Source: Clostridiales bacterium (GTDB lineage Bacteria > Bacillota > Clostridia > Ch29). Taken from it: a stretch of DNA of 38,698 nucleotides. The first letter of the stretch is position 1. Each line of letters begins with the position of its first letter. Of this stretch, positions 14,518 through 36,951 are shown one piece after another. A program made the translations under genes and the position numbers. The stretch covers positions 1 to 38,698 of the forward strand of contig JAAYEV010000115.1 in the NCBI GenBank assembly GCA_012728565.1, given 5' to 3'. Below the pieces are notes generated by a model, which saw nothing but the letters and a program-made list of their open reading frames with translations, was not told the DNA's origin and did no database searches.

Positions 14518-17175
14518 ATGCAAAAAGCTAAAAAACTGGATGACAAATACAACCCAAAAGGTTTTGAGGAAAGGCTATACAAATGGTGGGTGGAAAGCGG
14601 GTTCTTTACCCCCGAGAGGGAAGAAGGAAAACAGCCCTTTACAATAGTGATTCCCCCGCCCAATATAACCGGTCAGCTTCACATGGGGCACGCCCTGGAC
14701 AACACCATCCAGGACATCCTCATAAGGTGGAACAGGATGAAGGGCATTCCCACGCTGTGGCTGCCGGGTACGGACCATGCCAGCATTGCCACCGAGGCCA
14801 AGATAGTTGAAAGGCTGTCGGAGGAGGGCACTTCAAAGGGCGAGCTGGGCAGGGACAAATTCCTTGAAAGGGCATGGCGGTGGAAGGAAGAGTTCGGCGG
14901 GAGGATTGTGGAACAGCTCAAAAAACTGGGCAGCTCCTGCGACTGGACCCGGGAGAGGTTTACCATGGACGAGGGCTGCAGCAAGGCGGTTACCGAGTTT
15001 TTCGTAAGCCTTTACGAAAGGGACCTAATCTATCGGGGGGACAGGATAATCAACTGGTGTCCCACCTGCAAGACTTCCATATCCGATGCCGAGGTGGAGC
15101 ACCAGGACCTGGAAGGCAAGTTCTGGTATATCAAGTATCCTTTAAAGGACGGAGAAGGGTACGTGGAAGTAGCTACCACCCGTCCCGAGACCATGCTGGG
15201 GGACACCTGCGTCGCAGTACACCCCGATGACGAAAGGTATAAAGCACTGGTAGGCAGGACGGTGATACTGCCGCTTATGGAGAGGGAAATACCCATCGTT
15301 GCCGACGAGTACGTGGATATGTCCAAGGGTACCGGAGCGGTGAAGGTGACGCCGGGCCATGACCCCAACGACTTTGAAATAGGCGAAAGGCATGGCATTG
15401 CAAAGATAAGGATAATAAACGACGACGGCACCATGAACGAAAACGCCGGAGCCTTTGCCGGGATGGACCGGTACGAGGCCAGGAAAGCGGTTGTGAAGGA
15501 GCTTGAAGCCCGGGGCCTTATTACGAGGATAGAAAACATACAGCACAGCGTCGGCCACTGCTACAGGTGCGATTCTGTGATTGAGCCCCTTATCTCAACG
15601 CAGTGGTTTGTTAGGATGCAGCCGCTGGCGCAGCCGGCAATCAAGGCAGTTAAGGATGGCGATATACGGTTTGTGCCCCAGCGCTTTGAGAAAATTTACT
15701 TCCACTGGATGGAAAACATAAAGGACTGGTGCATTTCCCGGCAGCTGTGGTGGGGGCACAGGATTCCCGCCTATTACTGCTGTGAATGCGGCGAGATGAT
15801 GGTAAGAAGGGAACAGCCGACGGAGTGCGCAAAATGCGGCAGCAAAAGGATAGAACAGGACCCGGATACGCTGGATACCTGGTTCAGCTCGGGGCTGTGG
15901 CCCTTTTCCACCCTCGGCTGGCCGGAAAAGACCAAGGACCTGGAGTACTTTTATCCCACCAGTGTGCTGGTTACCGGCTACGATATAATATTTTTCTGGG
16001 TGGCCCGCATGATAGTATCGGCCCTGGACCAGATGAAGGAAAAACCCTTCTCGGATGTTTTAATCCACGGCCTGGTACGGGACGCCGAGGGCAGGAAAAT
16101 GAGCAAATCCCTAGGCAACGGCATAGACCCGCTGGAGATAATAGAAGAATACAGCGCCGATGCCCTTAGGTTCACCCTTGCCACCGGTAATGCTCCCGGC
16201 AACGATATGAGATTTAGAATGGAAAGGGTGGAGGCGTCCGGCAATTTTGCCAACAAGCTGTGGAATGCTTCCCGGTTCGTGCTCATGAACCTTGAGGGCC
16301 ATGACCTTGCTGATATAGACCGGGGGCTTGACAGGGAAGGATTGGAGCTTTCGGATCGGTGGCTGCTGTCAAGGCTTGATAGCCTTATCGCAGAGGTCGA
16401 GGACAGCATGCAAAAATACGAGCTGGGTATAGCGGCACAGAAACTCTACGACTTCATTTGGGGAGAATACTGCGACTGGTATATAGAGCTTGTAAAGCAC
16501 CGATTGTATGACCGGGGCAGCAAAACGGGGGATACGGCAAGAAGGGTACTGCATTACGGCCTGGACCGGCTGCTGAGGCTTTTGCATCCCTTTATGCCCT
16601 TTATTACCGAGGAAATATGGCAGCACCTGCCCCATGAAGGGGAGACCATAACGCTGGCCGAGTGGCCGAAATCGGACGGGTCCTTTAGGGACGAAAAGGC
16701 CGAGCAGCAGATGGAAGCAATTATGGAAGCAATACGGGCGATAAGGAACATTAGGGCGGAGATGGACGTTGCTCCTTCCAAGAAGGCAAACGTGATAATA
16801 GTATCCGAACGAAAAGAAACCCGGGACCTGTTTGCCAATAACAGTGTATACATTGAAAGGCTGGCCGCTGCCTCCAGGGTTACCGTAAGGGAAGATAAGG
16901 GAGGTATACCGTCGGATGCGGTATCGGCGGTTATAGAGGGTGCCCAGATTTATATTCCCATGGAAGAGCTGCTGGATATTGAAAAGGAAATAGAAAGGCT
17001 GGAAAGGGAAAAGGAAAGGCTGGAAAAGGAACTCGAAAGGGTTAACGGGAAGCTGTCCAACAAGGGCTTCGTGGAGAAAGCCCCGGCGGAAGTGGTGGAT
17101 GCCGAGAAGGAAAAACTAAAAAAATACCAGGATATGATGGCAAAGGTGCAGGAGAGGCTTAAGAGCCTTGTATAG
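14518..17175 (+). CDS. valS: Valine-tRNA ligase
   Basis: This 885-residue cytoplasmic class I aminoacyl-tRNA synthetase attaches valine to tRNA-Val and edits threonine. Visible signatures are HIGH as HMGH (55-58, in [12 protein letters not shown]), the editing-domain region with [11 protein letters not shown], zinc-type cysteine pairs (CYRCD and CCECG with CAKCG), and KMSKS (527-531). The C-terminal tail is a charged coiled coil ([25 protein letters not shown] region), typical of ValRS. Length is normal. The start follows AAGGAGGCG. Expression is controlled by the T-box leader. folC follows 46 bases later, an arrangement common in Firmicutes. Confidence 0.97.
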
Positions 17176-17221: not shown

Positions 17222-18499
17222 ATGAACTACCACGAGGCTGTTGAGTATATTGAAAGCATGTACAGGTTCGGCAGCAGGCCGGGCCTTGAAATCATCACCA
17301 GGCTGCTGGATCTTATGGGAAATCCCCACCTGAAGTTCAGGTCGGTCCATGCTGCCGGCACCAACGGGAAGGGTTCCACCTGCGCCCATATAGCTTCGGT
17401 ACTGAAGGAAGCGGGTTTTTTGACCGGGCTTTATACATCTCCTCACCTTGAAAGGTTTACCGAACGGATAAGGGTTTCGGGGGAAGAGATAGGCCAGGAG
17501 GATGTGGCCGAGATAACCGGGTTTGTTAAAGGACATATTCAGACCATGCTTGAGGAGGGCCGCCCGCATCCCACCGAGTTTGAGGCAATAACCGCCATTG
17601 GTTTTGAGTATTTCAAAAGGAAAGGGGTACAGTACGCCGTGGTGGAGGTGGGCATGGGAGGCAGGCTTGATGCCACCAACGTAATAACTCCGGAGGTCTC
17701 TGTAATAACTCCCATAAGCCTTGACCATGTGAACGTGCTGGGCAATGACATGGTCAGCATTGCCCGGGAGAAGGCGGGCATCATAAAGGATGGTGTCCCG
17801 GTAGTATGCGGATTGCAGCAGAGGGAAGTGATGGAGACCATTAGAGAAGTTTGCGAAAAAAGGAATGCTCCTTTTATTTATGCCGGTGACGGCCTGATTG
17901 AAAACCAGCGGCCGGAAAACGGGGGCCAGGTCTTTGACTTTGCCTGGCGGGGGAAAGTATACAGGAATATACGGGTTAGACTGATGGGCAGGCACCAGGC
18001 CGATAATGCCGCCCTGGCTTTTGTAACATGCCTGGAACTTGGTATACCTGAGAATGCTATACGGGGAGGGCTTGAAAAAACAATATGGCCGGGACGCATG
18101 GAGGTGCTTCGTAAAAAACCCCTCATTTTGATTGACGGCGCCCATAATGTAGACGGAGCAGCAGCACTGGTGAAGGGACTAAAGCAGTTTTTCCCCGGGA
18201 AAAGGGTACTGCTTGTACTGGGCATGCTTAGGGATAAGGATGTTGACAGCGTTGCGAAGATACTTGGGTCCTATGCGGACAGGGTGGTGACGGTCTCCCC
18301 CGTCAGCACCCGTGCGATGGACCCTCTGGAACTTAAGGGCATAGTTGAAAGATATAACAGGAACGTGGTCTGCGCTGCTTCGATAAGAGAAGCGGTGGAA
18401 AAGCACATGGTTTCGTCGGAGGATGAAATCATGGTGTTTTCCGGCTCCTTATATATGATAGGCGAAGTCCGGAAGCTGTTACCACCTGAAATATTTTGA
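17222..18499 (+). CDS. folC: Folylpolyglutamate synthase / dihydrofolate synthase
   Basis: This 425-residue Mur-ligase-fold ATP enzyme adds glutamate to folates and, in bifunctional members, to dihydropteroate. The P-loop GTNGKGST (46-53), the FolC motif VEVGMGGRLDATNV, SLDHVNVLGN and the C-terminal DGAHNVDGA motif are present. Length is typical. The ribosome site GGGAGGG precedes ATG. It probably belongs to the valS transcript. Its 3' end overlaps the 3' end of the opposite-strand gene at 18479 by 21 bases. Confidence 0.95.
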   Translation: MNYHEAVEYIESMYRFGSRPGLEIITRLLDLMGNPHLKFRSVHAAGTNGKGSTCAHIASVLKEAGFLTGLYTSPHLERFTERIRVSGEEIGQEDVAEITGFVKGHIQTMLEEGRPHPTEFEAITAIGFEYFKRKGVQYAVVEVGMGGRLDATNVITPEVSVITPISLDHVNVLGNDMVSIAREKAGIIKDGVPVVCGLQQREVMETIREVCEKRNAPFIYAGDGLIENQRPENGGQVFDFAWRGKVYRNIRVRLMGRHQADNAALAFVTCLELGIPENAIRGGLEKTIWPGRMEVLRKKPLILIDGAHNVDGAAALVKGLKQFFPGKRVLLVLGMLRDKDVDSVAKILGSYADRVVTVSPVSTRAMDPLELKGIVERYNRNVVCAASIREAVEKHMVSSEDEIMVFSGSLYMIGEVRKLLPPEIF

Positions 18500-19426: not shown

Positions 19427-21085
19427 GTGATTGTCAAAAAGCCTTTTCTTTTTGTAGTCATAACTTTTGTATTGGCAGGAATGCTAGCAGGCTGTGCCGG
19501 TACTCCGGTTGAAACCCCTGGAGGGCAGGCGGAGGGCAAGTATGGAGGAACTTTCAGGTTAGCCATAACGGAAAGCCCCAAGAACCTGAACCCTGTACAT
19601 GCAAATGATACTTCATCCATGAGGGTTGTATATCAGCTTTTTGATACGCTGGTTGGCATAGACAGTGAGGGCGAGCTGGTGCCAAACCTGGCAGAGTCCT
19701 GGGACATAAGTGAAGATGGACTTGTTTATACGTTCAAGCTGAAAGAAGGAGTCAAGTTTCACGCCACCACCGAAGGGGGCATGGAAACCGCCAACGGTGG
19801 CAGGGAGGTAACAGCGGAGAACTGGGTATGGACATTCAACTACATAACCGACCCGGATACCAATTCCGCAAGGGCTTATTTCATAGACATGGTAAAGGGG
19901 TATGATGATTATCGGGAAGGGAAAACCGATACCCTGGCCGGTGTTACTGCGAAGGACGATTATATACTTCAAATAGAACTCGAGCATAACTTTGCGCCTT
20001 TTATTTCAGTGCTTGGGTACAATACTTTTTCTGTGCTTCCCAGGGAGGACGTGGAAAAATGGGGAAAGGACTTTGGCCTGCACCCGGTGGGTACCAGCCC
20101 CTTTAAATTCTCCGAATGGACACAGGGAGACAGGCTGGTGCTGTCAAGGAACGAAAACTACTGGAGAAGTGACAGTAGCGGCAACAGCCTTCCTTACTTG
20201 GACGGCATGGAACTTAAGGTGATAAATGACTTGACAATGCAGTGGACCGAATTTAACCTGGGCAATTTCGAAGCGATAGAAGTGGTGGATGACCCGTATT
20301 ACCATGAAGCACTCGAGAAATACCCCGACAGTTTCTTCAGAAGGCCAATGATGGGTACTTACTTTTACGGTATGAATGTGACCGCAAAGCCCTTTGACAA
20401 TAAAAAAGTGAGGCAGGCTATAAATTATTCAATCGACAGGCAGGGTGTAATCGACTTGCTCCGGAACGGGCGCGCCACCCCGGCAAAGGGCGTTTTGCCG
20501 CCGGGAATGTTTGGCTATAATCCCGACCTTGAGGGTTATACCTACGACCCGGTCAAGGCAAAACAGCTTCTCGCGGAGGCGGGGTACCCAGAGGGGATAA
20601 GCATAACGCTGCAGTATAACACCGACGATATTCACAAGAGAATAGCCGAGGCTTTCCAGCAGCAGATGAAGGAGGCCGGGATAGAACTGGAGCTTAAGCA
20701 CATGGAAGGGGCAGCATTGTTTGAAGCGATGCAAAAGGGCGATGCCACCTTTTTCAGGCTGGGCTGGGTGGTGGACTATCCCGACCCGGATAATTTCCTG
20801 TATGTGCTGCTAAACAGTGCAAATTTCGGACCGCTAGGCAACTTCACATTGTATAGGAACCCCGAGTTTGACCGGCTGACCAATGAAGCAAGATTGGAAA
20901 CCGACCCCGAGGAAAGGAGAAGAATGTACCAAGAGGCCGAAAGGATTGCCGTGGAGGATGCCCCGTGGCTGTTTGTATATCACTATACAACCGAACAACT
21001 GCTTCAGCCCTACGTAAAGGGCTACACCCTCCCTTCCTTCGGAGAGCATACCGCTAAGTTCTATGACGTATGGCTGGATAAATAG
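19427..21085 (+). CDS. oppA: Peptide ABC transporter substrate-binding lipoprotein (family 5)
   Basis: This 552-residue extracellular lipoprotein captures peptides for the permease encoded downstream. The signal peptide ends in a lipobox with cysteine at residue 23 (LAGCAG). The mature part shows the family 5 pattern: GTFRLAITESPKNLNP, then LAESWDISEDGLVYTFKLKEG, and YGMNVTAKPFDNKKVRQAIN. The start is GTG after TAGGAGGG. It is the first gene of a five-gene operon and is separated from oppB by a strong hairpin terminator, which should give more binding protein than permease. Dipeptide versus oligopeptide preference cannot be told; other family 5 ligands, such as nickel, are less likely given the partner genes. 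Confidence 0.93.
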   Translation: MIVKKPFLFVVITFVLAGMLAGCAGTPVETPGGQAEGKYGGTFRLAITESPKNLNPVHANDTSSMRVVYQLFDTLVGIDSEGELVPNLAESWDISEDGLVYTFKLKEGVKFHATTEGGMETANGGREVTAENWVWTFNYITDPDTNSARAYFIDMVKGYDDYREGKTDTLAGVTAKDDYILQIELEHNFAPFISVLGYNTFSVLPREDVEKWGKDFGLHPVGTSPFKFSEWTQGDRLVLSRNENYWRSDSSGNSLPYLDGMELKVINDLTMQWTEFNLGNFEAIEVVDDPYYHEALEKYPDSFFRRPMMGTYFYGMNVTAKPFDNKKVRQAINYSIDRQGVIDLLRNGRATPAKGVLPPGMFGYNPDLEGYTYDPVKAKQLLAEAGYPEGISITLQYNTDDIHKRIAEAFQQQMKEAGIELELKHMEGAALFEAMQKGDATFFRLGWVVDYPDPDNFLYVLLNSANFGPLGNFTLYRNPEFDRLTNEARLETDPEERRRMYQEAERIAVEDAPWLFVYHYTTEQLLQPYVKGYTLPSFGEHTAKFYDVWLDK

Positions 21086-21103
21086 AGAGATTTACTCAAG
21101 TCG

Positions 21104-21132
21104 GCTTCCATCCTCGGATGGAAGCTGTTTTT
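21104..21132 (+). terminator. Terminator/attenuator between oppA and oppB
   Basis: A perfect ten-base-pair stem GCTTCCATCC (21104-21113) / GGATGGAAGC (21116-21125) has a two-base tip and is followed by TGTTTTT. Placed just after the binding-protein gene, it should stop most transcripts and let a fraction read into the permease genes. It also rules out the ATG at 21118 as the oppB start. Confidence 0.88.
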
Positions 21133-21162
21133 CGGATACCGCCTTTTAAAGGGGGGACTGGT

Positions 21163-22107
21163 TTGGCAATTTATACAATAAAAAGACTGCTGGCGGCTGT
21201 GCCCGTTGTAATAGGGGTAATAGCCGTCGTATTCATACTTACCTCCATAGTTCCCGGCGACCCTGCCCGACTTATAGCAGGAAAAACAGCCGACCCGGAA
21301 ACCATCCAGAGAATTAGGGAGGAGCTGGGCTTAAACCGGCCATTGTGGGAACAGTTTACCGATTTCTTCAAAGGAGTACTGACCTTTGACCTGGGCAGGT
21401 CGTACCGCAACAATAGGCCGGTGACACAGGTAATAATGGAAAGGCTTCCCCTTACCGCTAAATTGGCCGTGTCCTCCACCGCCCTGGCGGTTGTGACGGG
21501 GGTTTCGTTGGGAGTGGTATCGGCTGTCAAAAAAGACTCCATGCTGGACCACGGCGGCAGGGTGCTGGCACTCCTTGGCATATCGGCACCCAGCTTCTGG
21601 ATAGGGCTTATGGTAGTACTTCTGTTCTGCGTTAAACTGCGCTGGATTCCGGGTACCGGTACCGGGGACGGAGGCTGGTTGTACCTCGTTCTGCCGGTTA
21701 TTACCCTGGGTATGAGGCCTGCGGCATTTATTACAAGGCTTACACGGTCGGGTATGCTGGAGGTGCTGGAGCAGGACTACATACAGACGGCGTGGGCAAA
21801 GGGACTGCCCGGCAGGGCGGTTGTACTGGGGCATGCGCTTAAAAATGCTATGATTCCCGTTGCAACGGTGGCGGGTACCTGCATGGCGGAGATGATGGGC
21901 GGAGCCATAGTGGTTGAACAGTTTTTTTCACTGCCCGGGGTAGGCCGGCTGGGCCTTGAAGCAATACTTGCCAGGGACTTCCCGGTTATAAGGGGACAGG
22001 TACTGCTGCTTGCATTGGTGTTTGTGGCTGTTAACTTGCTGGTAGACCTGACCTATCCGCTGTTTGACCCCCGGATTAAATACGGCGGAAAGCGGAGGCA
22101 TGAATGA
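21163..22107 (+). CDS. oppB: Peptide ABC transporter permease, OppB/DppB type
   Basis: This 314-residue inner permease has about six membrane segments. It opens with the classical N-terminus MAIYTIKRLLAAVPVVIGV, includes DPARLIAGKTADPETIQRIREELGL, and contains the EAA-like loop (DYIQTAWAKGLPGRAVVLGHALKNA) that contacts the ATPases. The start is TTG at 21163 with a GGGGGG ribosome site six bases upstream; the in-frame ATG at 21118 lies inside the terminator hairpin. It pairs with OppC, whose gene follows immediately. Confidence 0.92.
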   Translation: MAIYTIKRLLAAVPVVIGVIAVVFILTSIVPGDPARLIAGKTADPETIQRIREELGLNRPLWEQFTDFFKGVLTFDLGRSYRNNRPVTQVIMERLPLTAKLAVSSTALAVVTGVSLGVVSAVKKDSMLDHGGRVLALLGISAPSFWIGLMVVLLFCVKLRWIPGTGTGDGGWLYLVLPVITLGMRPAAFITRLTRSGMLEVLEQDYIQTAWAKGLPGRAVVLGHALKNAMIPVATVAGTCMAEMMGGAIVVEQFFSLPGVGRLGLEAILARDFPVIRGQVLLLALVFVAVNLLVDLTYPLFDPRIKYGGKRRHE

Positions 22108-22108
22108 T

Positions 22109-22981
22109 ATGGAAAACGCTTGGTCAAGGTTTTTAAAAAATAAGCCAGCCATGGCGGGACTTTTTTTGGTTACGGTAATAGCACTGGCGGCAGTATTTGC
22201 CCCCTATATAACAAGGTATCAACCGACAGAACAGCTTATATGGACCGAGGGCAGCAAGGTTCAGCTTGTACCGCCCTGCAGCAGGTTTTGGTTCGGTACA
22301 GACATATACGGCCGGGATATGTTCTCCCGCGTGGTGTACGGGGCAAGGGCCTCCCTGCTCATCGGCACTGCTTCTACGGCCATTTCACTGTTAATCGGGA
22401 TAACCCTCGGCGCCCTGGCGGGATATTACGGCGGCGTTGTGGACGATATCATTTCGTGGCTTGCCAACGTTTTCTTTGCCTTTCCGTTCATCCTGTTTGT
22501 ACTGGCCTTGGTGGCCTACCTGCCCCCGGGGCTGCCCCTGATGTATGCGGCCATCGGTATAGTAAACTGGGCCGGCGTGGCCAGGCTGGTGCGGGGGCAG
22601 GTGCTGTCCGTCCGGGAGAAGGAATACGTGGAAGCCGCCGAAGCCCTTGGCGGCAGCGGCGCCAGGATAATAATAAGACACATACTGCCCAACATTATGG
22701 CGCCGGTATTGGTGCAGGCCACGCTTGGTATGGGCGGTATAATAATGCTGGAATCTTCCCTAAGCTTCCTAGGGTTTGGAATACAGCCCCCAACCCCCAG
22801 CTGGGGCTATGAAATAGCCCAGGGAAGGCAGTACCTTTTGACCGGTGCATGGTGGTGGTCAGCCTTTCCCGGCATGGCTATAATGGCTCTCGTAATGGGT
22901 TTTAACCTGTTGGGGGACGGTCTCAGGGACCTGCTGGACCCGAGAAATGACGACGCATACGGGTGGTGGGGACGTGGGTGA
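22109..22981 (+). CDS. oppC: Peptide ABC transporter permease, OppC/DppC type
   Basis: This 290-residue permease has an N-terminal membrane segment after FLKNKPAMAGLFLV, the conserved FGTDIYGRDMFSRVVYGARASL region, and the EAA loop (EYVEAAEALGGSGARIIIRHILPN). These are standard for the OppC/DppC/NikC group. The start at 22109 is placed one base after the oppB stop with GCGGAGG ten bases upstream; ATG at 22100 is also in frame but sits too close to that site. Its end overlaps oppD. Confidence 0.9.
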   Translation: MENAWSRFLKNKPAMAGLFLVTVIALAAVFAPYITRYQPTEQLIWTEGSKVQLVPPCSRFWFGTDIYGRDMFSRVVYGARASLLIGTASTAISLLIGITLGALAGYYGGVVDDIISWLANVFFAFPFILFVLALVAYLPPGLPLMYAAIGIVNWAGVARLVRGQVLSVREKEYVEAAEALGGSGARIIIRHILPNIMAPVLVQATLGMGGIIMLESSLSFLGFGIQPPTPSWGYEIAQGRQYLLTGAWWWSAFPGMAIMALVMGFNLLGDGLRDLLDPRNDDAYGWWGRG

Positions 22982-23948
22982 AAGAATACTGGCCGTAAGG
23001 GGCCTTAAAACTCATTATTATATAGGCGGCAGGGTTATAAAGGCGGTGGACGGCCTGGACTTTGACCTGGAAAGGGGCGAAACCCTTGGCATAGTAGGTG
23101 AATCCGGCTGCGGCAAAAGCACCGCAGCCCTGTCGGTGATGGGCCTTATATCGCTCCGGGCGGGGCGGGTCGTCGGCGGGCAGGTGCTGTTCAAGGGCAA
23201 AAGTTTGCTTGCCTTACCCGGTGAAGAGATGAGAAGAATAAGGGGCAGCGAAATGTCAATGATATTCCAGGAACCCATGACTTCGCTTAACCCCGTTTTG
23301 ACGATAGGCCGCCAGGTTTCTGAAGTGTTCATGGTACACAAGGGCATGAGCAGGCGGGAAGCCTTGGATGAGGCGGTTAAAATACTGTCACAGGTGGGCA
23401 TACCCGCACCGGGGCAAATGATACGGGAATACCCCCACCGGTTAAGCGGGGGAATGCGGCAGAGAGCCATGATTGCAATGGCCATTGCCTGCGGCCCGGA
23501 TGTGCTGATTGCCGACGAGCCCACGTCGGAGCTGGATGTTACGGTGCAGGACCAGGTGCTGCGGCTTTTGAGGGAACTGAAAGAAAGGATTGGCATGGCG
23601 ATGGTACTTATAACCCACGACCTGGGGGTTGTCGCCGAGACCGTACAAAACGTGCTGGTGATGTATGCCGGCAGGGCGGTGGAGTATTCGGATGTGTCGG
23701 GGCTGTTTAACGAACCCATGCATCCCTATACCAAGGGACTGATTGCGTCGGTGCCCGGGCTGGGTAAGGCCGGTGAAAAATTGGGCGGTATAAAAGGAGA
23801 GCCCCCCAGCCCCTTAGACCTTCCCGGCGGCTGCAGGTTCCATCCACGGTGCGAGCACGCCCGCGAAATATGCCGCATTCATGAACCGGAACTTGTAAGA
23901 GTGGGGGATGGACGGTTGTGCGCTTGCCACTTGTATAATGATTGGTAG
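22974..23948 (+). CDS. oppD: Peptide ABC transporter ATPase, OppD/DppD type
   Basis: This 324-residue ATP-binding subunit has Walker A GESGCGKST (42-50), signature LSGGMRQRAMIAMA, Walker B DVLIADEPTSELDVT, and the C-terminal oligopeptide-transporter extension (HPYTKGLIASVP, then GGCRFHPRCEHA with further cysteines). In related DppD proteins this cysteine cluster binds an iron-sulfur centre. The start GTG at 22974 overlaps the oppC stop by eight bases and follows GGTGGTGGGG; an in-frame ATG at 22947 is the alternative. It works as a pair with OppF. Confidence 0.9.
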   Translation: MGERILAVRGLKTHYYIGGRVIKAVDGLDFDLERGETLGIVGESGCGKSTAALSVMGLISLRAGRVVGGQVLFKGKSLLALPGEEMRRIRGSEMSMIFQEPMTSLNPVLTIGRQVSEVFMVHKGMSRREALDEAVKILSQVGIPAPGQMIREYPHRLSGGMRQRAMIAMAIACGPDVLIADEPTSELDVTVQDQVLRLLRELKERIGMAMVLITHDLGVVAETVQNVLVMYAGRAVEYSDVSGLFNEPMHPYTKGLIASVPGLGKAGEKLGGIKGEPPSPLDLPGGCRFHPRCEHAREICRIHEPELVRVGDGRLCACHLYNDW

Positions 23949-23954
23949 TTGGTA

Positions 23955-23977
23955 AAGCAGGAACCGTCCCATTGCTT
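23955..23977. repeat. Type A palindromic element between oppD and oppF
   Basis: Arms AAGCA (23955-23959) and TGCTT (23973-23977) enclose GGAACCGTCCCAT, the reverse form of the shared core. It sits in the 48-base gap between the two ATPase genes, just before the oppF ribosome site. Confidence 0.65.
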
Positions 23978-23996
23978 CTATTAAGGGGGAGACTGG

Positions 23997-24962
23997 ATGC
24001 AGCGGAGCATGTTGGAGATAAAAAACCTTAAGAAATATTTTCCCGTGAAGGGTTCGGGATTTCTTAGGCCCCGGGCCTTAGTTAAGGCGGTGGACGGCGT
24101 TAGTTTTACGCTGGATAAGGGAGAGACCCTTGGACTTGTCGGGGAGTCGGGCTGCGGAAAATCCACCGTGGGAAGGCTGATACTGGGACTTATACGGCCC
24201 ACCGAAGGGGAAATATATTTCCAGGGCAGAAACATTCCCGGCATGGACAGGGAAGAAATACGCCGGATGAGACGGGATATACAGCTGGTATTCCAGGACC
24301 CGTACGGTTCCCTGGACCCCAGGATGAAAGCGGGGGATATTGTGGGGGAAGCCTTGGAAATACACCGCATTGCGAAGGGGAAGGACAAGGAAAAGCGGGT
24401 GGAGGAACTGCTTGAACTGGTGGGATTAAAGCCGCAGTACAAGGCAAGGTATCCCCACCAGCTCAGCGGCGGCCAGCGGCAGCGAATAGCCATAGCCAGG
24501 GCGCTGGCGGTAGGGCCCAGGCTTATTGTCTGCGACGAGCCTGTATCCTCGCTGGACGTTTCGGTCCAGGCCCAGGTAATAGACCTGATGCAGGAACTGC
24601 AGCAGAGGTTGGGACAGGCGTACCTGTTTATTTCCCATGACCTTGGTGTCATAAGGCATATAAGCGACAGGGTGGCGGTTATGTACCTAGGCAGGATAGT
24701 TGAACTGGCGCGCAGGGACCAAGTGTTTGACCGGCCGGCGCATCCCTACACCCGGGCAATGCTTGCCGCAGTCCCGGTGTTAAGCCCGCATCTAAAGAAA
24801 GAAAGGGTACCGCTGGAGGGAGAGGTGCCCAATGCGATAAATCCCCCGGGCGGGTGCAGGTTCCATACAAGGTGCGTCCATGCGCTGCCGGTATGCAGCG
24901 AGGTGGAGCCGGCTCTTTCCGACCTTGGCGGAGGGCATTTATGCGCGTGTCATCTTTTTTAA
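23997..24962 (+). CDS. oppF: Peptide ABC transporter ATPase, OppF/DppF type
   Basis: This 321-residue ATP-binding subunit has Walker A GESGCGKST, the Q-loop QLVFQDPYGSLDPRM typical of OppF, signature LSGGQRQRIAIARA, Walker B RLIVCDEPVSSLDVS, and the C-terminal extension HPYTRAMLAAVPV with a cysteine cluster (GGCRFHTRCVHALPVC). The start follows GGGGGAG by six bases; an in-frame ATG at 24009 is possible. It is the last gene of the transporter operon, closed by the hairpin at 25076. Confidence 0.92.
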   Translation: MQRSMLEIKNLKKYFPVKGSGFLRPRALVKAVDGVSFTLDKGETLGLVGESGCGKSTVGRLILGLIRPTEGEIYFQGRNIPGMDREEIRRMRRDIQLVFQDPYGSLDPRMKAGDIVGEALEIHRIAKGKDKEKRVEELLELVGLKPQYKARYPHQLSGGQRQRIAIARALAVGPRLIVCDEPVSSLDVSVQAQVIDLMQELQQRLGQAYLFISHDLGVIRHISDRVAVMYLGRIVELARRDQVFDRPAHPYTRAMLAAVPVLSPHLKKERVPLEGEVPNAINPPGGCRFHTRCVHALPVCSEVEPALSDLGGGHLCACHLF

Positions 24963-25115: not shown

Positions 25116-25246
25116 GCAGTAATACGGGAACCGGTAATAAGCGATTTACATACTGTTTTACCGGGCAGGCAGCTCCTTCATTAATACATAAATAGTTGGA
25201 ATTAGCAAAACCTAAAAATACTCAAAATATTACGGAGTGAATACCT

Positions 25247-26758
25247 ATGCATCTGGACATCGATATAAAGGGAGTTACCTGCGATTCGAGAAAAGTAAAG
25301 CCGGGATTTGCTTTTGTCGCAATAAAGGGGGAAAGGGAAGATGGAAACGACTATATCCGGGAAGCAATCACCAATGGGGCTTCGGTTATTTACACAGAGG
25401 CAAACCCGGAGGACCTTCCATTGAACGTTCCGGTTATAAGGGTGCAAAATTCAAGGGCGGTGTTGGGAAGACTGTTGTCCAGGTTTTACGGTTTCCCCTC
25501 CGAGAAACTCAATATGATAGGAGTTACCGGCACCAATGGAAAAACCACTACCACTTTCATGATAGAGAACATATTCCGCAGGGCCGGATACTCCACCGGC
25601 CTTATCGGCACGGTCATGGTCAAGGCGGGGGACAACTATTATCCCCACGGCCTAACCACGCCGGACAGTGAAGAGTTGCAAAAATACCTCGCTGAGATGG
25701 TTGACCAGGGCGTGTACGCCGCCGTAATGGAGGTGTCTTCCCATGGGCTCAAGTACCGGAGGGTGGACTCGGTGCGGTTTAACACGGCGGTGCATACCAA
25801 TATAACTCACGATCATCTGGATGCCCACAGCAGTTTCGAAGAATATGTATCCACAAAAAAAAGGCTGTTCAACATGCTGCCCCCGGGAGCGGCGGCGATA
25901 ATAAATACCGACGACCCCCACGGGCTGGAACTGGTACGGGATAACCCTAAACTGCTCATACTAACTTACGGTTTGGGCGCAAAGGCTAGCATAACCGCTT
26001 CCAGCATAGATGTGAACAGCCTTGGGATAAGCTATACCTACTGCCTGCAGAGGTCCTTTACCAGCGTAATGGGCAGTGACGTAGAGCCCCAGGAAATTCC
26101 GATAAATCTCACGGTTCCGGGGAAACACAACATATACAACAGCCTTGCCGCGGCAACGGTGGGCCTTTTGTACGGTGTTGAGCCAAAGGTGGTTCAGTCG
26201 GCGCTTAAAAATTTCAAGGGCGTATGGCGAAGGATGCAGGTGATATACCAGGAGGACTTTACCGTTATAGACGATTTCAGCCACAATCCCGGCAGTTACG
26301 AGGCGGCCTTTGAAACGGTCCAGACCATGGATTATAACAACCTTTATATTGTAAATGCCATACGGGGCGGCAGGGGAGAAGAGATAAACAGCATTAACGC
26401 GTCGGTGATTTCAAGCTGGGCAAACCTGCTGGATGTTAAGGAAGTGCTGGTGACCAGCAGCGAGGACGTTGTGGAAGAGAGCGACCGGGTAACCGCCGGC
26501 GAAAGGGAGGCCTTTATGTCGGAACTTAAAAAAGCCGGGGTAAAGGCAAGGCACTACGACCTGCTGGAGCAGGCGGTGGAAGAGGCAGTAAGCAAGGCGG
26601 GGAAGGGGGATTTGGTCCTACTGATGGGTGCCCAGGGCATGAATAGAGGGCAGGATGTATTCCGGGATAAGATGGACGGTCGGTCCCGTATCAGGAGAAG
26701 GGATATTACCGACCTGCCCTTTGAATACCACCACGGCAATACAATAAACCCCTCATAA
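25247..26758 (+). CDS. Divergent MurE-like (Mur ligase family) protein
   Basis: This 503-residue ATP-dependent ligase has the MurE fold. The N-terminal domain shows the UDP-MurNAc-type motif VTCDSRKVKPG, the centre has the P-loop VTGTNGKTTTT (93-103), THDHLDAHSSFEEY, and the carbamylated-lysine region STKKRLF (K204). The C-terminal domain departs from MurE: DYAHTPD is DDFSHNPG, the GGDRDxxKR stretch is replaced by NAIRGGRGEEIN, and the DNPR amino-acid motif is absent. The N-terminus begins about 20 residues later than usual MurE. It therefore may ligate another amino acid or act on another substrate; a normal MurE is expected elsewhere. The start follows GGAGTG. An SSB-like gene follows 72 bases later. 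Confidence 0.85.
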   Translation: MHLDIDIKGVTCDSRKVKPGFAFVAIKGEREDGNDYIREAITNGASVIYTEANPEDLPLNVPVIRVQNSRAVLGRLLSRFYGFPSEKLNMIGVTGTNGKTTTTFMIENIFRRAGYSTGLIGTVMVKAGDNYYPHGLTTPDSEELQKYLAEMVDQGVYAAVMEVSSHGLKYRRVDSVRFNTAVHTNITHDHLDAHSSFEEYVSTKKRLFNMLPPGAAAIINTDDPHGLELVRDNPKLLILTYGLGAKASITASSIDVNSLGISYTYCLQRSFTSVMGSDVEPQEIPINLTVPGKHNIYNSLAAATVGLLYGVEPKVVQSALKNFKGVWRRMQVIYQEDFTVIDDFSHNPGSYEAAFETVQTMDYNNLYIVNAIRGGRGEEINSINASVISSWANLLDVKEVLVTSSEDVVEESDRVTAGEREAFMSELKKAGVKARHYDLLEQAVEEAVSKAGKGDLVLLMGAQGMNRGQDVFRDKMDGRSRIRRRDITDLPFEYHHGNTINPS

Positions 26759-26830: not shown

Positions 26831-27508
26831 GTGTCACAAAGGACGGTAAACAACAATGCTGTAACCGTGGTGGGCAGGTACTACGGCGGTTTTGAGTTCA
26901 GTCACAAGGTATACGGTGAGGGGTTCTACAATTTCAAACTTATGGTCCCAAGGCTCAGTGATTATTCGGATATACTGCCGGTTACCGTTTCCGAAAGGCT
27001 AATATATGGGATGGACATTACAAGCTGCAGGCAGAACATAATAATCCAGGGTCAGCTGAGATCCTATAACAAGTTTGTGGACGGGAGCAACAGGCTTATA
27101 CTCACCATTTTTGCCCGGGACCTGTCACTGCAGCAGGAGCAGGAAGAAATAAAAAACCCGAACCAGATTACCCTGGACGGGTACGTGTGCAAAAGCCCGC
27201 TTTACCGGACCACGCCCTTTGGAAGGGAGATAACCGATATACTGCTGGCGGTCAACCGGGCCTACGGGAAGTCTGACTATATACCGTGCATCGCGTGGGG
27301 AAGGAATGCAAGGTTTTCAGAAAAGCTTAAGGTAGGTGACAGGATAAAAATCTGGGGAAGGGTACAGAGCCGGGAGTACCAAAAAAAGACTCACAACGGC
27401 GAAGTCATAAACAAGGTTGCTTACGAGGTATCAATATCGAAAATGGAGAGGATAAACGAAAACAATAGGTCCGGTAGTAACGATGAAGGGGTAGAGGACT
27501 GCTGCTAA
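26831..27508 (+). CDS. Double OB-fold, SSB-like protein
   Basis: This 225-residue protein appears to contain two SSB-type OB folds. The first spans about residues 8-105 (NNAVTVVGRYYGGFEFSHKVYGEGFYNFKLMVPR region) and the second about 115-210 (NQITLDGYVCKSPLYRTTPFGREITDILLAVNR, then DYIPCIAWGRNARFSEKLKVGDRIKIWGRVQSR). The second closely matches bacterial SSB. There is no acidic phenylalanine-ending tip as in replicative SSB; the tail is EDCC. The start is GTG at 26831; an in-frame TTG at 26792 would lengthen it by 13 residues. A role in single-stranded DNA binding is likely; its process is unknown. It is next to the MurE-like gene, and the link is unexplained. Confidence 0.75.
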   Translation: MSQRTVNNNAVTVVGRYYGGFEFSHKVYGEGFYNFKLMVPRLSDYSDILPVTVSERLIYGMDITSCRQNIIIQGQLRSYNKFVDGSNRLILTIFARDLSLQQEQEEIKNPNQITLDGYVCKSPLYRTTPFGREITDILLAVNRAYGKSDYIPCIAWGRNARFSEKLKVGDRIKIWGRVQSREYQKKTHNGEVINKVAYEVSISKMERINENNRSGSNDEGVEDCC

Positions 27509-27525
27509 GGGCAGTCTGTTTATTT
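27497..27525 (+). terminator. Probable terminator after SSB-like gene
   Basis: GACTGC (27497-27502) pairs with GCAGTC (27511-27516) across the stop codon, followed by TGTTTATTTT. The stem is short and the T-run imperfect, so termination may be partial. Confidence 0.55.
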
Positions 27526-32087: not shown

Positions 32088-33293
32088 CTACAGGTCAAAC
32101 TCCTTTGCCAGGGCGGAGACCGCCTTGGCCTGGTCTTTCGGGTCTATGGTGCAGGATATGCGTATCTCGGAAGTGGTGATTATCTTTATCTTCACATCGT
32201 TTTCCGCCAGTACCGAGAACATCCTGGCCGCCACTCCGGGCTGGGTCTTCATGCCCATTCCCACCACCGAAAGCTTTGCTATATCGGTATCCGTTTCAAT
32301 GGTGAAGGGGCCGGCCTTTTCCTGGAGCTGTTTGACGCTTTCCAGGGCTGCGGGCAGGTCGTTTTTGGGAATTGTAAAGGAGACGCTAATCCGGTCACCT
32401 ACGGGGGTAGTCTGGCTTATCATGTCCACGTTAATATGTTTTTCGGCAAGGCCCTTAAACAGCTGGGCCACCGACTGTACTGTATATGGGAAATCATTCA
32501 CCGTCACCATCGCATCGTTGTTGTCCACGGCCAGGCCGGTTATTACGGTTTTTTCCATTATTTCATCACTCTCCCTTATAAACGTTCCGGGACGGTCCCC
32601 GGTGTTCAATGCAACGTATATGGGCACTTTGTAGTTATGGCCAATTTCTATCGAGCGGGGGTGCATTACACCGGCCCCCAGGCTGGCCATCTCCATCATT
32701 TCTTCGTAGCTGATGTACTCCAGTTTGCGGGCGGCGGGGTACAGCCCGGGGTCTATTGTGTATATACCGTCCACATCGGTGTATATCTCACAAAGGGCAC
32801 CAAGTTTTGCAGCCAGTGCCACCGCCGTTGTATCAGAACCTCCACGGCCAAGGGTTGTAATCTCGTTATTATTGTTTATACCCTGGAAGCCGGCCACGAT
32901 AACCACGTTGTCCTTATCCAGTTCTTCATAGATCACGGATGCGTCAATATCCGAGATCTTGGATTTCGTATGAAAGCCTTCGGTCATAAGGCCGATTTGC
33001 TGGCCGGTGAAGGAACGGGCTTTGCAGCCTATATCGTTAAGGGCGATGGACAAAAGCGCGATTGAAACCTGCTCACCGGTGGACATTAGCACGTCAAGCT
33101 CCCTTGGGCGCGGATTATCGCTTAACCCGTAGGCCATGGATAGCAGTTTATCGGTTGTATTGCCCATGGCGGATACCACCACCACCAGCTTTACACCGGT
33201 CTGTTTTCTTTCCTTTATCCTTTTTGCCACTTCTTTTATTTTTTCCAGGTCTTTCACCGAAGAGCCGCCGTATTTTTGTACTACAATATCCAT
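32088..33293 (-). CDS. lysC: Aspartate kinase
   Basis: This 401-residue cytoplasmic enzyme phosphorylates aspartate, the first step toward lysine, threonine and methionine. The kinase motif VQKYGGSSVKD is at residues 4-14, FQGINNNNEITTLGRGGSDTTA in the middle, and two ACT-type regulatory domains fill the last 130 or so residues (VTVNDFPYTVQSVAQLF and LSVVGMGMKTQPGVAARMF). Length fits the monofunctional Bacillus LysC/DapG type, in which a shorter subunit from an internal start is known; none was proven here. It is the last gene of the riboswitch-controlled operon, separated from dapH by a terminator-like hairpin that may lower its expression. Confidence 0.95.
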   Translation of the reverse strand: MDIVVQKYGGSSVKDLEKIKEVAKRIKERKQTGVKLVVVVSAMGNTTDKLLSMAYGLSDNPRPRELDVLMSTGEQVSIALLSIALNDIGCKARSFTGQQIGLMTEGFHTKSKISDIDASVIYEELDKDNVVIVAGFQGINNNNEITTLGRGGSDTTAVALAAKLGALCEIYTDVDGIYTIDPGLYPAARKLEYISYEEMMEMASLGAGVMHPRSIEIGHNYKVPIYVALNTGDRPGTFIRESDEIMEKTVITGLAVDNNDAMVTVNDFPYTVQSVAQLFKGLAEKHINVDMISQTTPVGDRISVSFTIPKNDLPAALESVKQLQEKAGPFTIETDTDIAKLSVVGMGMKTQPGVAARMFSVLAENDVKIKIITTSEIRISCTIDPKDQAKAVSALAKEFDL

Positions 33294-33323
33294 TGCATCA
33301 CATCCTTGTCCAGTATAGTATTG

Positions 33324-33361
33324 AAAAAAGCCACCGACCGCAGTAACTGCAATCGATGGCT
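33324..33361 (-). terminator. Terminator-like hairpin between dapH and lysC
   Basis: On the minus strand AGCCATCGA (33361 to 33353) pairs with TCGGTGGCT (33337 to 33329) with one wobble; the inner part GCAGT/ACTGC can extend it. Six Ts follow. It should give partial termination before lysC. Confidence 0.8.
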
Positions 33362-33376
33362 AGCGTACCGACGGGT

Positions 33377-34162
33377 TTATTCTCTCAAGTCTTTCATTAT
33401 TATTGTTTTATCTTTTGTGGACTGGTCAACGCGCTTTATCGGTTTGGCCGGTGTTCCGGCCACAACCGTTTCCGGCTCCACGTCCTTGGTTACCACCGAA
33501 CCCGCAGCCACTACCGCGCCTTTTCCTATCCTGACCCCTTCCAGTATTACCGCATTGGCGCCAATAAGGACATCATCCTCTATAATGACGGGGGTGCTGC
33601 TGGGGGGTTCCAGGACACCGGCAATTACAGCCCCGGCTCCCACGTGCACGTTTTTCCCGACTATTCCCCGGGCGCCTATTACGGCGTTCATATCTATCAT
33701 GGCACCGTCTCCTATATCCGCGCCTATATTGATTACCGCCCCCATCATGATTACCGCGCCTTTGCCTATCTTTACCCTGTCCCTTATAACGGCACCGGGC
33801 TCAATACGGGCATCTATGTTTTTTAAGTCCAAAAGGGGTATCGCCGAGTTTCTTCGGTCACATTCCAAGTGGATTTTCCTGATTCTCTGAGCGCAGATCT
33901 CCAAAAGTTTTGCAAACCCTGCATATTCGCCTACTGCAATCCAGAAATTATTGCTTCCGTACAGCTGCAGGTTCTCTGCCTCAACTCCCTCCAGGTCACC
34001 GTCGATATAGGCTTTCACGGGAGTGGTTTTTACAGCGTTTTTTATAAAAGCGGCAATTTTATACGGGTCATTGAGGTCATCCTCGCGGCAGCAGCAGTAT
34101 TGGGTGCCTGCAACATCTTCCCGGCAGCTGCATCCTCCGCTATTGCATGCGTCCTTTGTCAT
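33377..34162 (-). CDS. dapH: Tetrahydrodipicolinate N-acetyltransferase with cysteine-rich N-terminus
   Basis: This 261-residue cytoplasmic enzyme acetylates tetrahydrodipicolinate in the acetylase branch of lysine synthesis. The C-terminal half is a left-handed beta-helix of hexapeptide repeats ([32 protein letters not shown] and on), ending in AGTPAKPIK. The family domain starts near residue 32 ([21 protein letters not shown]). Before it is an unusual extension with six cysteines at 6, 11, 13, 23, 24 and 25; Bacillus DapH is about 236 residues and lacks it. No other start codon exists between residue 1 and the family domain, and GGAAAGGACGG precedes the start, so the extension is probably translated. 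It may bind metal or be redox-active; unproven. Confidence 0.9.
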
Positions 34163-34193
34163 TTGTGCATCCGTCCTTTCCGTCTCTATGTCG

Positions 34194-34949
34194 TTATGAT
34201 AGAATACTGTCCATATTGTACAGCCCGGGTTTTTGCGCGGTAATAAACCGGGCGGCCCTTAGAGCCCCGAGGGCGAAAATTCTGCGGGATAGGGCCAGGT
34301 GCCTTATCTCAATAATTTCGTCCGGTCCTGCAAATAGTACGCTGTGTTCCCCCGGCATTGTTCCGCCCCGTATTGCGTGAATTCCTATCTCGTTTTGCTG
34401 CCTTTTTTCCGACTGCGGGGTCCTCCCGTATACAAACTCCCTGTTTTGGTCCAACGTTTCTTTTATGGCCTTTGCCAGCATAAGAGCTGTGCCGCTGGGA
34501 GCGTCGGCTTTCTGGTTGTGATGAAACTCGGTTATTTCTATGTCAAAACCCTCGGACAGCACCGAGGCTACCCTGCAGCAGATGTCCTTGACCAGGTTGA
34601 CACCCAGCGACATGTTGGCGGTATGGAAAACCGGCACCGTCTCTGCCGCCCGCTCCAGCAGCTTTGTATGTTCTCTGCCCAGGCCGGTGGTCGCAACCAT
34701 AAGCGCCGTCTTGGTCCTTTCGGCGTAAGATACCAGCGCGGGTATGGATTCCGGCCGGGAAAAATCTATTATAAGGTCCGCACTGCCTTCGAACATGTCA
34801 ATGTTTTCAAAAACGGGGTACCCATAGGGGCTGGGCTGGGTGTTTTTGTCTATGCCGGCCACTATTTGGATATCGGATGTCTTTGATACTTCCTCCGAAA
34901 CCACCCTTCCCATTTTACCGTTACAACCGTTCAATATGGCTTTTATCAT
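34194..34949 (-). CDS. dapB: 4-hydroxy-tetrahydrodipicolinate reductase
   Basis: This 251-residue cytoplasmic enzyme reduces the DapA product with NAD(P)H. The dinucleotide-binding motif GCNGKMGR is at residues 8-15, ATTGLG follows, and the catalytic region [18 protein letters not shown] carries the histidine and lysine of the active site. Length is slightly short but normal for Gram-positive DapB. It begins four bases after the dapA stop; dapH follows after 31 bases. Confidence 0.95.
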
Positions 34950-34953
34950 GCCC

Positions 34954-35841
34954 TTACCCCCTCAGAGTAAATCCATAATCCACCAGCGTCTTTTTGAGGA
35001 ATTCAAGATTTTGGTCGGTCATGGTGGTAAGGGGCAGTCTCAGCTTGCCCACGTTGTAACCCAGAAGGTTCATGGCTGTTTTAACCGGTATCGGGTTAAC
35101 CTCGCAGAACAGGGCCTTGAATATGGGCATAATCTTAAGCTGCAGTTCCTTGCTTTTTTGTACGTCGCCCTCAAGGTAGGAGGCCACCATGTCGTGCATT
35201 TCTTCCGGTATTATGTTTGCGGTCACCGATATAACTCCCTTGCCGCCGAGGGACAAAAGGGGCACCACCTGGTCGTCGTTCCCGGAGTAAAGGTCTAATT
35301 TATCCCCGCACAGGTACGCGGTCTCTGCAATCTGGGTAAAGTTTCCGCTGGCTTCCTTAATCCCTGATATGTTTTTGTGTTCGCACAGTTTGCGGAGAGT
35401 ATCCGGCGTAATGTTCATACCGGTTCTTCCGGGTACGTTGTAAATTATTATGGGGATGTCGATACTGTCCGCTACGGCGGTGAAATGCTCCACCAGCCCT
35501 TTCTGGGTTGATTTGTTGTAATACGGTGTAATGACTAAGACAGCATCCGCCCCCACTTCCTGGGCGTATTGGCTCCTCTTTATGGTCTTGGCGGTGTCGT
35601 TCGTTCCGGTGCCCGCTATCACCGGTATTCTCTTGTCGGTTTTTTCCACGGTGTACTTTATGGCTGCCCTAAGCTCTTCCTCGGTCATCGTGGACGCTTC
35701 TCCCGTGGTGCCGCAGATTATGATGGCATCTGTCTTGCGCTCAACATGCATATCGATGAGTTCGCCGAGCTTTTGAAAGTCTATACCGTCTTCCGTAAAG
35801 GGAGTTACAATGGCAACTCCTGATCCGGTAAATACTGACAT
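34954..35841 (-). CDS. dapA: 4-hydroxy-tetrahydrodipicolinate synthase
   Basis: This 295-residue cytoplasmic lyase condenses aspartate semialdehyde with pyruvate. Family motifs are [14 protein letters not shown], the tyrosine in [13 protein letters not shown] and the Schiff-base lysine in GIKEASGN. Length is standard. The ribosome site on the minus strand contains AGGAGG. It follows asd after 117 bases; that gap has no strong terminator or promoter. Confidence 0.96.
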
Positions 35842-35958
35842 AAGATCATCCTCCTATTTTTGCTGATTAAACAGCTTTATATTTTTAAAACATTTTTTCC
35901 GGGTTTAAGTGATGCCGTGCCGAGAAACGGTTTTTCACAATACTTTTGTTCGCCTGCG

Positions 35959-36951
35959 TTAGTTTTTACCGATAACCAGTTCCGCAATCTGCACCGCATT
36001 TGTGGCGGCACCTTTTCTGACGTTGTCCGCCACCACCCAGAGGTTTACGCCGCTTTTTACGCTCTCATCCCTTCTAATGCGGCCTACGTACACCAGGTCG
36101 GTATCGGCGGCAACCGTTGCCAGCGGATACAGGTTGCTGCACGGGTCGTCCATCACTTTTATCCCGGGGCTTTTTCCAAGGAGCTCTTTGAGGTCCTCCA
36201 AGTCGAAGTCTTTTTTCAGCTCCACGTTGACCGATTCGCTGTGGCACTTTTCCACGGGCACCCTGACGGTGGTTGCCGTTATCCTCATTGTATCGTCTCC
36301 CAGTATCTTCCGTGTCTCGTCAATCATCTTCATTTCTTCCTTGGTATATCCGTTATCGAGGAACACGTCTATATGGGGCAGGCAGTTGTTGACTATCGGA
36401 TGGGGATACAGGGACGGTCCTTTACCCGCCAGCCCGTCGGTCAAGTCCTTAATCCCTTTGTAACCCGAGCCGGAGACCGCCTGGTAGGTGGAGAAAACCA
36501 CCCTTTCTACTCCATACCTGTCCTGAAGGGGTTTTAGTACCACCACCGCCTGGATGGTGGAGCAGTTGGGATTTGCTATGATACCCTTATGTTTTTTTAC
36601 TTCCTGGGGGTTTACCTCCGGGACCACCAGCGGTACGTCCTTATCCATTCTCCAGGCGCTGCTGTTGTCCACCACCACTACTCCCTTCGAAGCGGCTATG
36701 GGCGCATACTTTTTGCTTATTTCCCCGCCGGCGGAAAAGAGTGCCAGGTCTATGCCCCTGTCGAAGGAATCTTCCCCCAGTTTTTCCACAAGGTATTCTT
36801 TTCCTTTGAATTCAAGGGTTTTGCCCTCCGACCTGCCGGATGCAAAAAGGTAAAGTTCACCCACCGGGAAGTCCCGTTCCTCCAGTACCTTGAGGAATGT
36901 CCTGCCCACCATTCCTGTTGCTCCTACGATTGCTACCCTGAAACCTTTCAA
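35959..36951 (-). CDS. asd: Aspartate-semialdehyde dehydrogenase
   Basis: This 330-residue cytoplasmic enzyme reduces aspartyl phosphate to aspartate semialdehyde with NADPH. The N-terminal nucleotide-binding motif VGATGMVGR (9-17) and the catalytic cysteine in NPNCSTIQ (C130) are visible, followed by YQAVSGSG. Length is normal. It is the first gene after the lysine riboswitch, so lysine should switch off the whole asd-dapA-dapB-dapH-lysC order. Confidence 0.96.
   Translation of the reverse strand: MKGFRVAIVGATGMVGRTFLKVLEERDFPVGELYLFASGRSEGKTLEFKGKEYLVEKLGEDSFDRGIDLALFSAGGEISKKYAPIAASKGVVVVDNSSAWRMDKDVPLVVPEVNPQEVKKHKGIIANPNCSTIQAVVVLKPLQDRYGVERVVFSTYQAVSGSGYKGIKDLTDGLAGKGPSLYPHPIVNNCLPHIDVFLDNGYTKEEMKMIDETRKILGDDTMRITATTVRVPVEKCHSESVNVELKKDFDLEDLKELLGKSPGIKVMDDPCSNLYPLATVAADTDLVYVGRIRRDESVKSGVNLWVVADNVRKGAATNAVQIAELVIGKN

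Follow-up and report, generated by a model that had tools for sequence, protein, structure and literature searches.

Introduction

MurE adds the third amino acid to the building blocks of the bacterial cell wall, and the residue at position 3 of the stem peptide governs how the wall is cross-linked, how immune receptors recognise it and how susceptible it is to hydrolases. Here, we analysed a stretch of 38,698 nucleotides from a Clostridiales bacterium (contig JAAYEV010000115.1 of GenBank assembly GCA_012728565.1), called the window below, and focus on a MurE-like ligase gene that it encodes (Table 1). An original prediction, made from the nucleotide sequence alone, had described the product of this gene as a ligase that has lost the MurE substrate-recognition motifs.

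In MurE enzymes that use diaminopimelic acid (DAP), the distal carboxylate of the amino acid is held by the Asn and Arg of the DNPR motif; the Staphylococcus aureus enzyme binds the side-chain amino group of lysine through the Asp of DNPA and through Glu-460; and the Glu of the GKGHE motif binds the side-chain amino group of Lys or DAP (PMC3829189). The window protein shares with MurE (structures 1e8c and 2xja) the three-domain fold, the ATP site, the carbamylated lysine, the DSR, TTP and EVSS motifs and R172, but differs in its short N-terminus and belongs to a family that forms a separate clade, lacks DNPR, GGDRD, DYAHTPD and GKGHE and instead has RR, IRGxRG, a longer loop in place of DNPR and GxxxM(D/N). 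With the L-Lys-adding MurE of the S. aureus type (PRK14022; 4c12 and 4c13) it shares a likely use of an amino acid other than DAP and a structural match (E 1e-37 to 1e-36), whereas DNPA and Glu-460, which are kept in S. aureus (PMC3829189), are both missing from the window family, and the score of 200.3 bits is far from the equivalog cut-off of 536. The pseudomurein ligase pMurE (7tzi, 6vr8) has a Mur ligase fold of moderate similarity, but the window protein reaches only 195.5 bits against a cut-off of 600 and pMurE ranks structurally below bacterial MurE. The Mur-like module of cyanophycin synthetase (CphA) resembles the window protein in having HNP instead of HTP; however, the CphA score is 124.9 bits (cut-off 850), and the window protein consists of Mur domains only, without a fused ATP-grasp module. 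Our literature search found no described second MurE of this type and no account of this MurE sister family.

Results and discussion

A second MurE-type ligase with a conserved acceptor side and a rewritten amino-acid side

The window gene is a real, conserved second MurE-type ligase, which combines an intact predicted fold and catalytic set with a conserved acceptor side, a rewritten amino-acid side and a position in a separate clade. We consider it moderately probable that the gene encodes a second UDP-N-acetylmuramic acid (UDP-MurNAc)-dipeptide:amino-acid ligase with non-DAP specificity, present beside a normal MurE. The enzyme, a member of what we term clade B, would then work alongside the DAP-adding MurE and provide an alternative wall precursor in some condition or cell stage; we infer its acceptor, its amino acid and the entry of its product into the wall. 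If true, one bacterium would make two kinds of wall precursor.

A domain search identified three Mur domains in the 503-amino-acid (aa) protein, which is a MurE in the broad sense, scoring 325.9 bits against the murE model TIGR01085 (subfamily cut-off 257.3). It lies below every equivalog cut-off, the nearest being that of the DAP-ligase model PRK00139.1-4 (353 vs 373 bits). An AlphaFold2 (AF2) model based on 58 sequences (mean pLDDT 91.3, pTM 0.91) shows the MurE three-domain fold; its best match in the PDB is MurE with UDP-MurNAc-dipeptide (2xja, E 3.7e-39, TM 0.78), and MurE ranks first, followed by pMurE, MurF and MurC. Models for MurT, CapB/PgsB and FolC were not among the 25 best of 30 NCBIfam families, with no MurT-specific search made, and FolC is encoded by a separate gene in the window (17222-18499). 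The N-terminus had been predicted to be about 20 residues short, and this is real, since a GGAG sequence and an in-frame TGA upstream support the ATG start. The same residues are missing from most relatives in the clade (bacterial family f1, to which the window belongs, and Halanaerobiales-like lineages) and present in other family members.

Comparing alignment columns of 70 family members with those of 33 canonical MurE proteins, we found 38 columns with an identity of 90% or higher in each group; the N-terminal and central domains, which serve ATP and the acceptor, contain 33 of them. These conserved columns include S14, the P-loop, T137-P139, E162, S164, S165, R172, H190, H194 and K204. Within this set, G98, K99, T100 and K204 are invariant, and the residues for UDP-MurNAc-dipeptide, namely S14, T137, T138, P139, S164, S165 and the substrate arginine R172, which the window protein retains, each reach at least 90% conservation in the family and in canonical MurE alike. 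Family-specific conserved changes, on the other hand, fall in the C-terminal domain in 12 of 14 cases. All eight type-II switches, in which one fixed residue gives way to another (G to R328, G to R373, D to G377, R to N381, S to T403, R to L440, H to M465 and E to D466; fixed at 85% or more in the 70 family members), are located in this amino-acid-binding domain. The GGDRD region reads NAIRGGRGEEIN in the window protein, DNPR and the Glu of GKGHE occur neither there nor in any aligned family member displayed, and the longer loop that replaces DNPR carries D413, V415 and an invariant E419.

Each motif statement of the original prediction proved correct, namely the change of DYAHTPD to DDFSHNPG, the altered GGDRD region and the missing DNPR, and so did the open reading frame with a kept ATP site (TGTNGKTTT), DSR motif (D13-S14-R15) and K204 region. 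Its claim that the MurE substrate-recognition motifs are lost holds for the amino-acid half and is too strong for the UDP-MurNAc-dipeptide half, which is conserved. Read against the residue roles described for MurE (PMC3829189), the pattern therefore suggests that the acceptor side is kept and the amino-acid side rebuilt. Chance or decay does not account for these changes, because the same motifs are found in orthologues of all six f1 genomes and the eight switches are fixed in 70 members. A non-catalytic protein with a structural or regulatory role has a precedent on the MurE fold in plastid PAP11, which is among the structural matches; we regard such a role as highly improbable here, as no variation is seen across the family in the P-loop, the carbamylated lysine or the acceptor residues, and clade A enzymes (see below) must be catalytic where they are the sole MurE. 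Judged from its sequence, the window protein is likely an active ligase, as had been proposed.

The ligase belongs to a sister family of canonical MurE

The window's genome contains seven Mur_ligase_M genes, including a canonical MurE on another contig (G000:C222) with DYAHTPDG, GGNRD and an intact DNPR, and the window gene is thus not the only MurE of its host. All six sampled f1 genomes carry an orthologue that is 67-80% identical, and the other sampled f1 genomes also keep a separate MurE at about 37%. A phylum-wide search with an eight-member profile detected family members in 48 of 398 sampled genomes (382-930 bits; canonical MurE at most 378 bits). A class-wide search with a 58-row profile found them in 22 of 391 genomes, with members at 583 bits or more and other MurE copies at about 438 or less; apart from a single intermediate (G034, 440 bits), the family and MurE are separated by a clear score gap. 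The pattern DD[FC][AS]HNPG was too narrow as a family probe and matched the window's own family alone.

A tree of 98 proteins places the family in one clade (SH-aLRT 99), which also contains a partial protein from a metagenome-assembled genome (L056), and the 36 rows of canonical MurE, drawn from several phyla, in a second (90); the tree was built by a quick method and the placement of single long branches is uncertain. Clade A comprises 22 rows with a DDHFAN motif (support 100). The window protein groups in clade B with bacterial families f70 and f30 (97) and with Halanaerobiales-like lineages (98), and the remaining members fall into several smaller clades in no settled branching order. The protein is therefore not nested inside DAP-adding MurE with motifs merely displaced in the alignment; lacking DNPR and the GKGHE Glu, and placed in a clade apart from the canonical rows, it does not class as a DAP-adding MurE. 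That it is a redundant DAP-adding MurE with drifted motifs is hinted at by its best hidden Markov model match, still PRK00139.1-4 though under cut-off, but this explanation is hardly credible: the altered residues are fixed in about 70 members, canonical MurE from several phyla groups apart, and the sister clade acts as MurE in genomes that lack dapB. Two further genes stand out in the tree. L134, a second MurE-like gene (G013:C95) that lacks DNPR, forms a long branch inside canonical MurE, and a CphA-like gene that is also present in the window's genome (L006, G000:C208; open frame of about 900 aa) forms a long branch outside the family.

Clade A as a probable non-DAP MurE

Fourteen sampled genomes have no MurE other than family members, namely all seven of f31, all three of f46, and G570, G571, G729 and G594, the last of which has two family copies, one of clade A and one related non-A. 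Most of these genomes are 95-100% complete, several in 1-5 contigs. These 14 bacteria must add a third residue to their precursors, and the majority are probably unable to synthesise DAP: dapB is missing in 10 of the 14 genomes with clade A as sole MurE, compared with 2 of 16 genomes with canonical MurE. Several clade A members score just under the TIGR01085 cut-off.

In G026, G100 and G284 (L129, L251, L252), the clade A gene lies in a tight operon between genes for an ATP-grasp ligase and an Asp/Glu-type racemase, and two of the three f46 genomes have the ATP-grasp gene next to the clade A gene. In a set of 76 genomes, this D-Asp-ligase-like protein occurs in 21 of 31 with clade A and in 1 of 45 others (Fisher p 3e-10), a p value overstated by genome relatedness, although the link holds over nine families. 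In Lactococcus lactis, an ATP-grasp D-aspartate ligase adds D-Asp to the L-Lys of the stem peptide and shares one operon with aspartate racemase (PMC4155827), and Eubacterium is listed with walls of the A4alpha and A4beta types (PMC11382707). As clade A supplies the sole MurE in these 14 genomes, dapB is missing from most of them and the ATP-grasp ligase is linked by both operon and co-occurrence, clade A is most simply explained as a non-DAP MurE, with Lys or Orn as the probable residue. The sister-clade signature (IRGxRG, DxVxxxE, GxxxMD and no DNPR) may predict non-DAP walls in uncultured Bacillota. Family f31 may resemble the Peptoniphilaceae, which have Lys or Orn in their walls. The racemase of the three operons scores above the cut-off for the cysteate racemase CuyB. 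In the lone exception outside clade A, G318 (C1:2983598-2986365), the ATP-grasp gene lies directly upstream of a second MurE copy that scores as canonical, which suggests another specificity change within canonical MurE.

What clade A implies for clade B

The pocket signature RR, DD, RGxRG...N and DxVxxxE is common to clades A and B and therefore argues for a similar, non-DAP amino acid in clade B. Together with this sister-clade evidence, the original proposal that the enzyme may couple an amino acid other than the usual one to a wall precursor is the best-supported reading. Several observations weigh against it. No near-complete genome has clade B as its sole MurE, and clade B shows no co-occurrence with the ATP-grasp ligase; its substrate may therefore differ from that of clade A. 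Residue 466 is Asn in the six f1 orthologues and not the usual acidic Asp, the window's genome showed a single MurF-like gene, and a scan of about 50 loci found no lysine riboswitch, relevant T-box or similar control RNA upstream of the family gene. Moreover, two near-complete genomes with canonical MurE (G441 and G537) have no clear dapB, and missing dapB therefore does not prove that a wall is free of DAP; these two probably have another DAP source or a divergent dapB. On a wider scale, we tentatively propose that many anaerobic Bacillota carry two MurE-type ligases of differing third-residue specificity and so make two wall precursors, with clade B inserting Lys, Orn or a residue new to position 3 in cells that also use DAP, and with clade A having replaced MurE in lineages that abandoned DAP.

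Genomic neighbourhood and possible roles outside the vegetative wall

The gene order peptide transporter, MurE-like ligase and single-stranded DNA-binding protein (SSB) is found in all six f1 genomes. In f70 and f30 (L255, L261, L263), the order is PdaB-like deacetylase, MurE-like ligase and SSB, where PdaB scores close to the TIGR02764 cut-off or exceeds it, and the MurE-SSB order is kept in nine genomes of three families. The two-OB-fold SSB-like gene was correctly predicted (NCBIfam PRK05813, 354 bits, cut-off 171). Neighbours of the gene in other non-A lineages are a VanW-like protein, a D,D-carboxypeptidase or lysC-dapA; f107 and f137 have a SpoVB-like flippase gene nearby. Most clade B members are flanked by oppositely oriented, lineage-specific genes, which rules out operon logic as a clue for this clade.

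These surroundings bear on the idea that clade B acts outside cell-wall synthesis, adding an amino acid to another nucleotide-sugar peptide or to a small gamma-glutamyl acceptor, perhaps in connection with imported peptides. Clade B is always an extra copy beside MurE, its f1 neighbours are the peptide ATP-binding cassette (ABC) transporter and SSB with no mur genes, and its HNPG resembles the DYGHNP of cyanophycin synthetase. We nevertheless think this rather unlikely, as the acceptor residues S14, T137, T138, S165, R172 and H190 are as conserved as in MurE, MurE ranks first in the fold search, the scores for CphA and other Mur-ligase relatives are far under their cut-offs, and some non-A neighbours (PdaB, SpoVB-like, VanW, D,D-carboxypeptidase) are wall genes. 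The earlier suggestion of another peptide-like product gained no positive support, although it may still apply to the window's own clade.

The PdaB and SpoVB-like neighbours, and the presence of Spo0A in every clade B genome tested with the Spo0A model, could instead point to a MurE specialised for a developmental wall, such as spore cortex or stress wall, in which the third residue is secondary to the place or time of action. This appears improbable: Spo0A is also present in 31 of 31 comparison genomes and does not discriminate, it is missing from four clade A genomes, and the f1 orthologues have no sporulation neighbour. With Spo0A in 76 of 80 genomes, the phyletic profile is uninformative about a link to sporulation.

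A second ligase with non-DAP specificity beside the normal MurE remains our preferred interpretation, and in the window's host the lysC-dapD-dapB-dapA-asd operon indicates that DAP is made and that the canonical MurE therefore has its substrate. The ligase gene had been described as far from cell-wall genes, which is correct for mur genes and not for DAP/lysine synthesis, encoded 5.3 kb downstream.

Table 1. Features of the window around and within the MurE-like gene.
Feature	Position	Strand	Evidence and remarks
MurE-like ligase, clade B of the Bacillota MurE sister family	25247..26758	+	Open reading frame and translation, TIGR01085, tree, AF2 model; 503 aa
GGAG, ribosome-binding-site-like	25234..25237	+	Sequence; with in-frame TGA at 25238 fixes start at 25247
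P-loop GTNGKTTT, aa 95-102, ATP site	25529..25552	+	Alignments
TTP, aa 137-139, acceptor side	25655..25663	+	Invariant in 58 members, conserved in canonical MurE
EVSSH, aa 162-166, acceptor-side motif	25730..25744	+	Alignments
K204, counterpart of the carbamylated lysine	25856..25858	+	Invariant in 58 aligned members, conserved in canonical MurE
DDFSHNPG, aa 342-349, replaces DYAHTPDG	26270..26293	+	Alignments
IRGGRGEEIN, aa 372-381	26360..26389	+	Family-specific switches at R373, G377 and N381; the Arg of GGDRD is matched by R376 in the alignment
Loop aa 403-419 (T..DxVxxxE), replaces DNPR loop	26453..26503	+	E419 invariant in family
GAQGMN, aa 461-466, replaces GKGHE	26627..26644	+	Alignment
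SSB paralogue, two OB folds, PRK05813	26792..27508	+	Follows the ligase gene after 33 bp, probably on the same transcript; start codon uncertain
Terminator-like hairpin overlapping SSB gene end	27496..27517	+	Pattern match only; number found not clearly above shuffles
Oligopeptide/dipeptide ABC transporter, 5 genes	19427..24962	+	Directly upstream in all 6 f1 genomes; neighbourhood only
lysC, dapD, dapB, dapA, asd operon	32088..36951	-	Gene matches
Lysine riboswitch RF00168, 127.5 bits	37098-37272	-	Upstream of asd-dapA-dapB-dapD-lysC operon
T-box leader RF00230, 124 bits	14201-14416	+	Upstream of valS at 14518-17175
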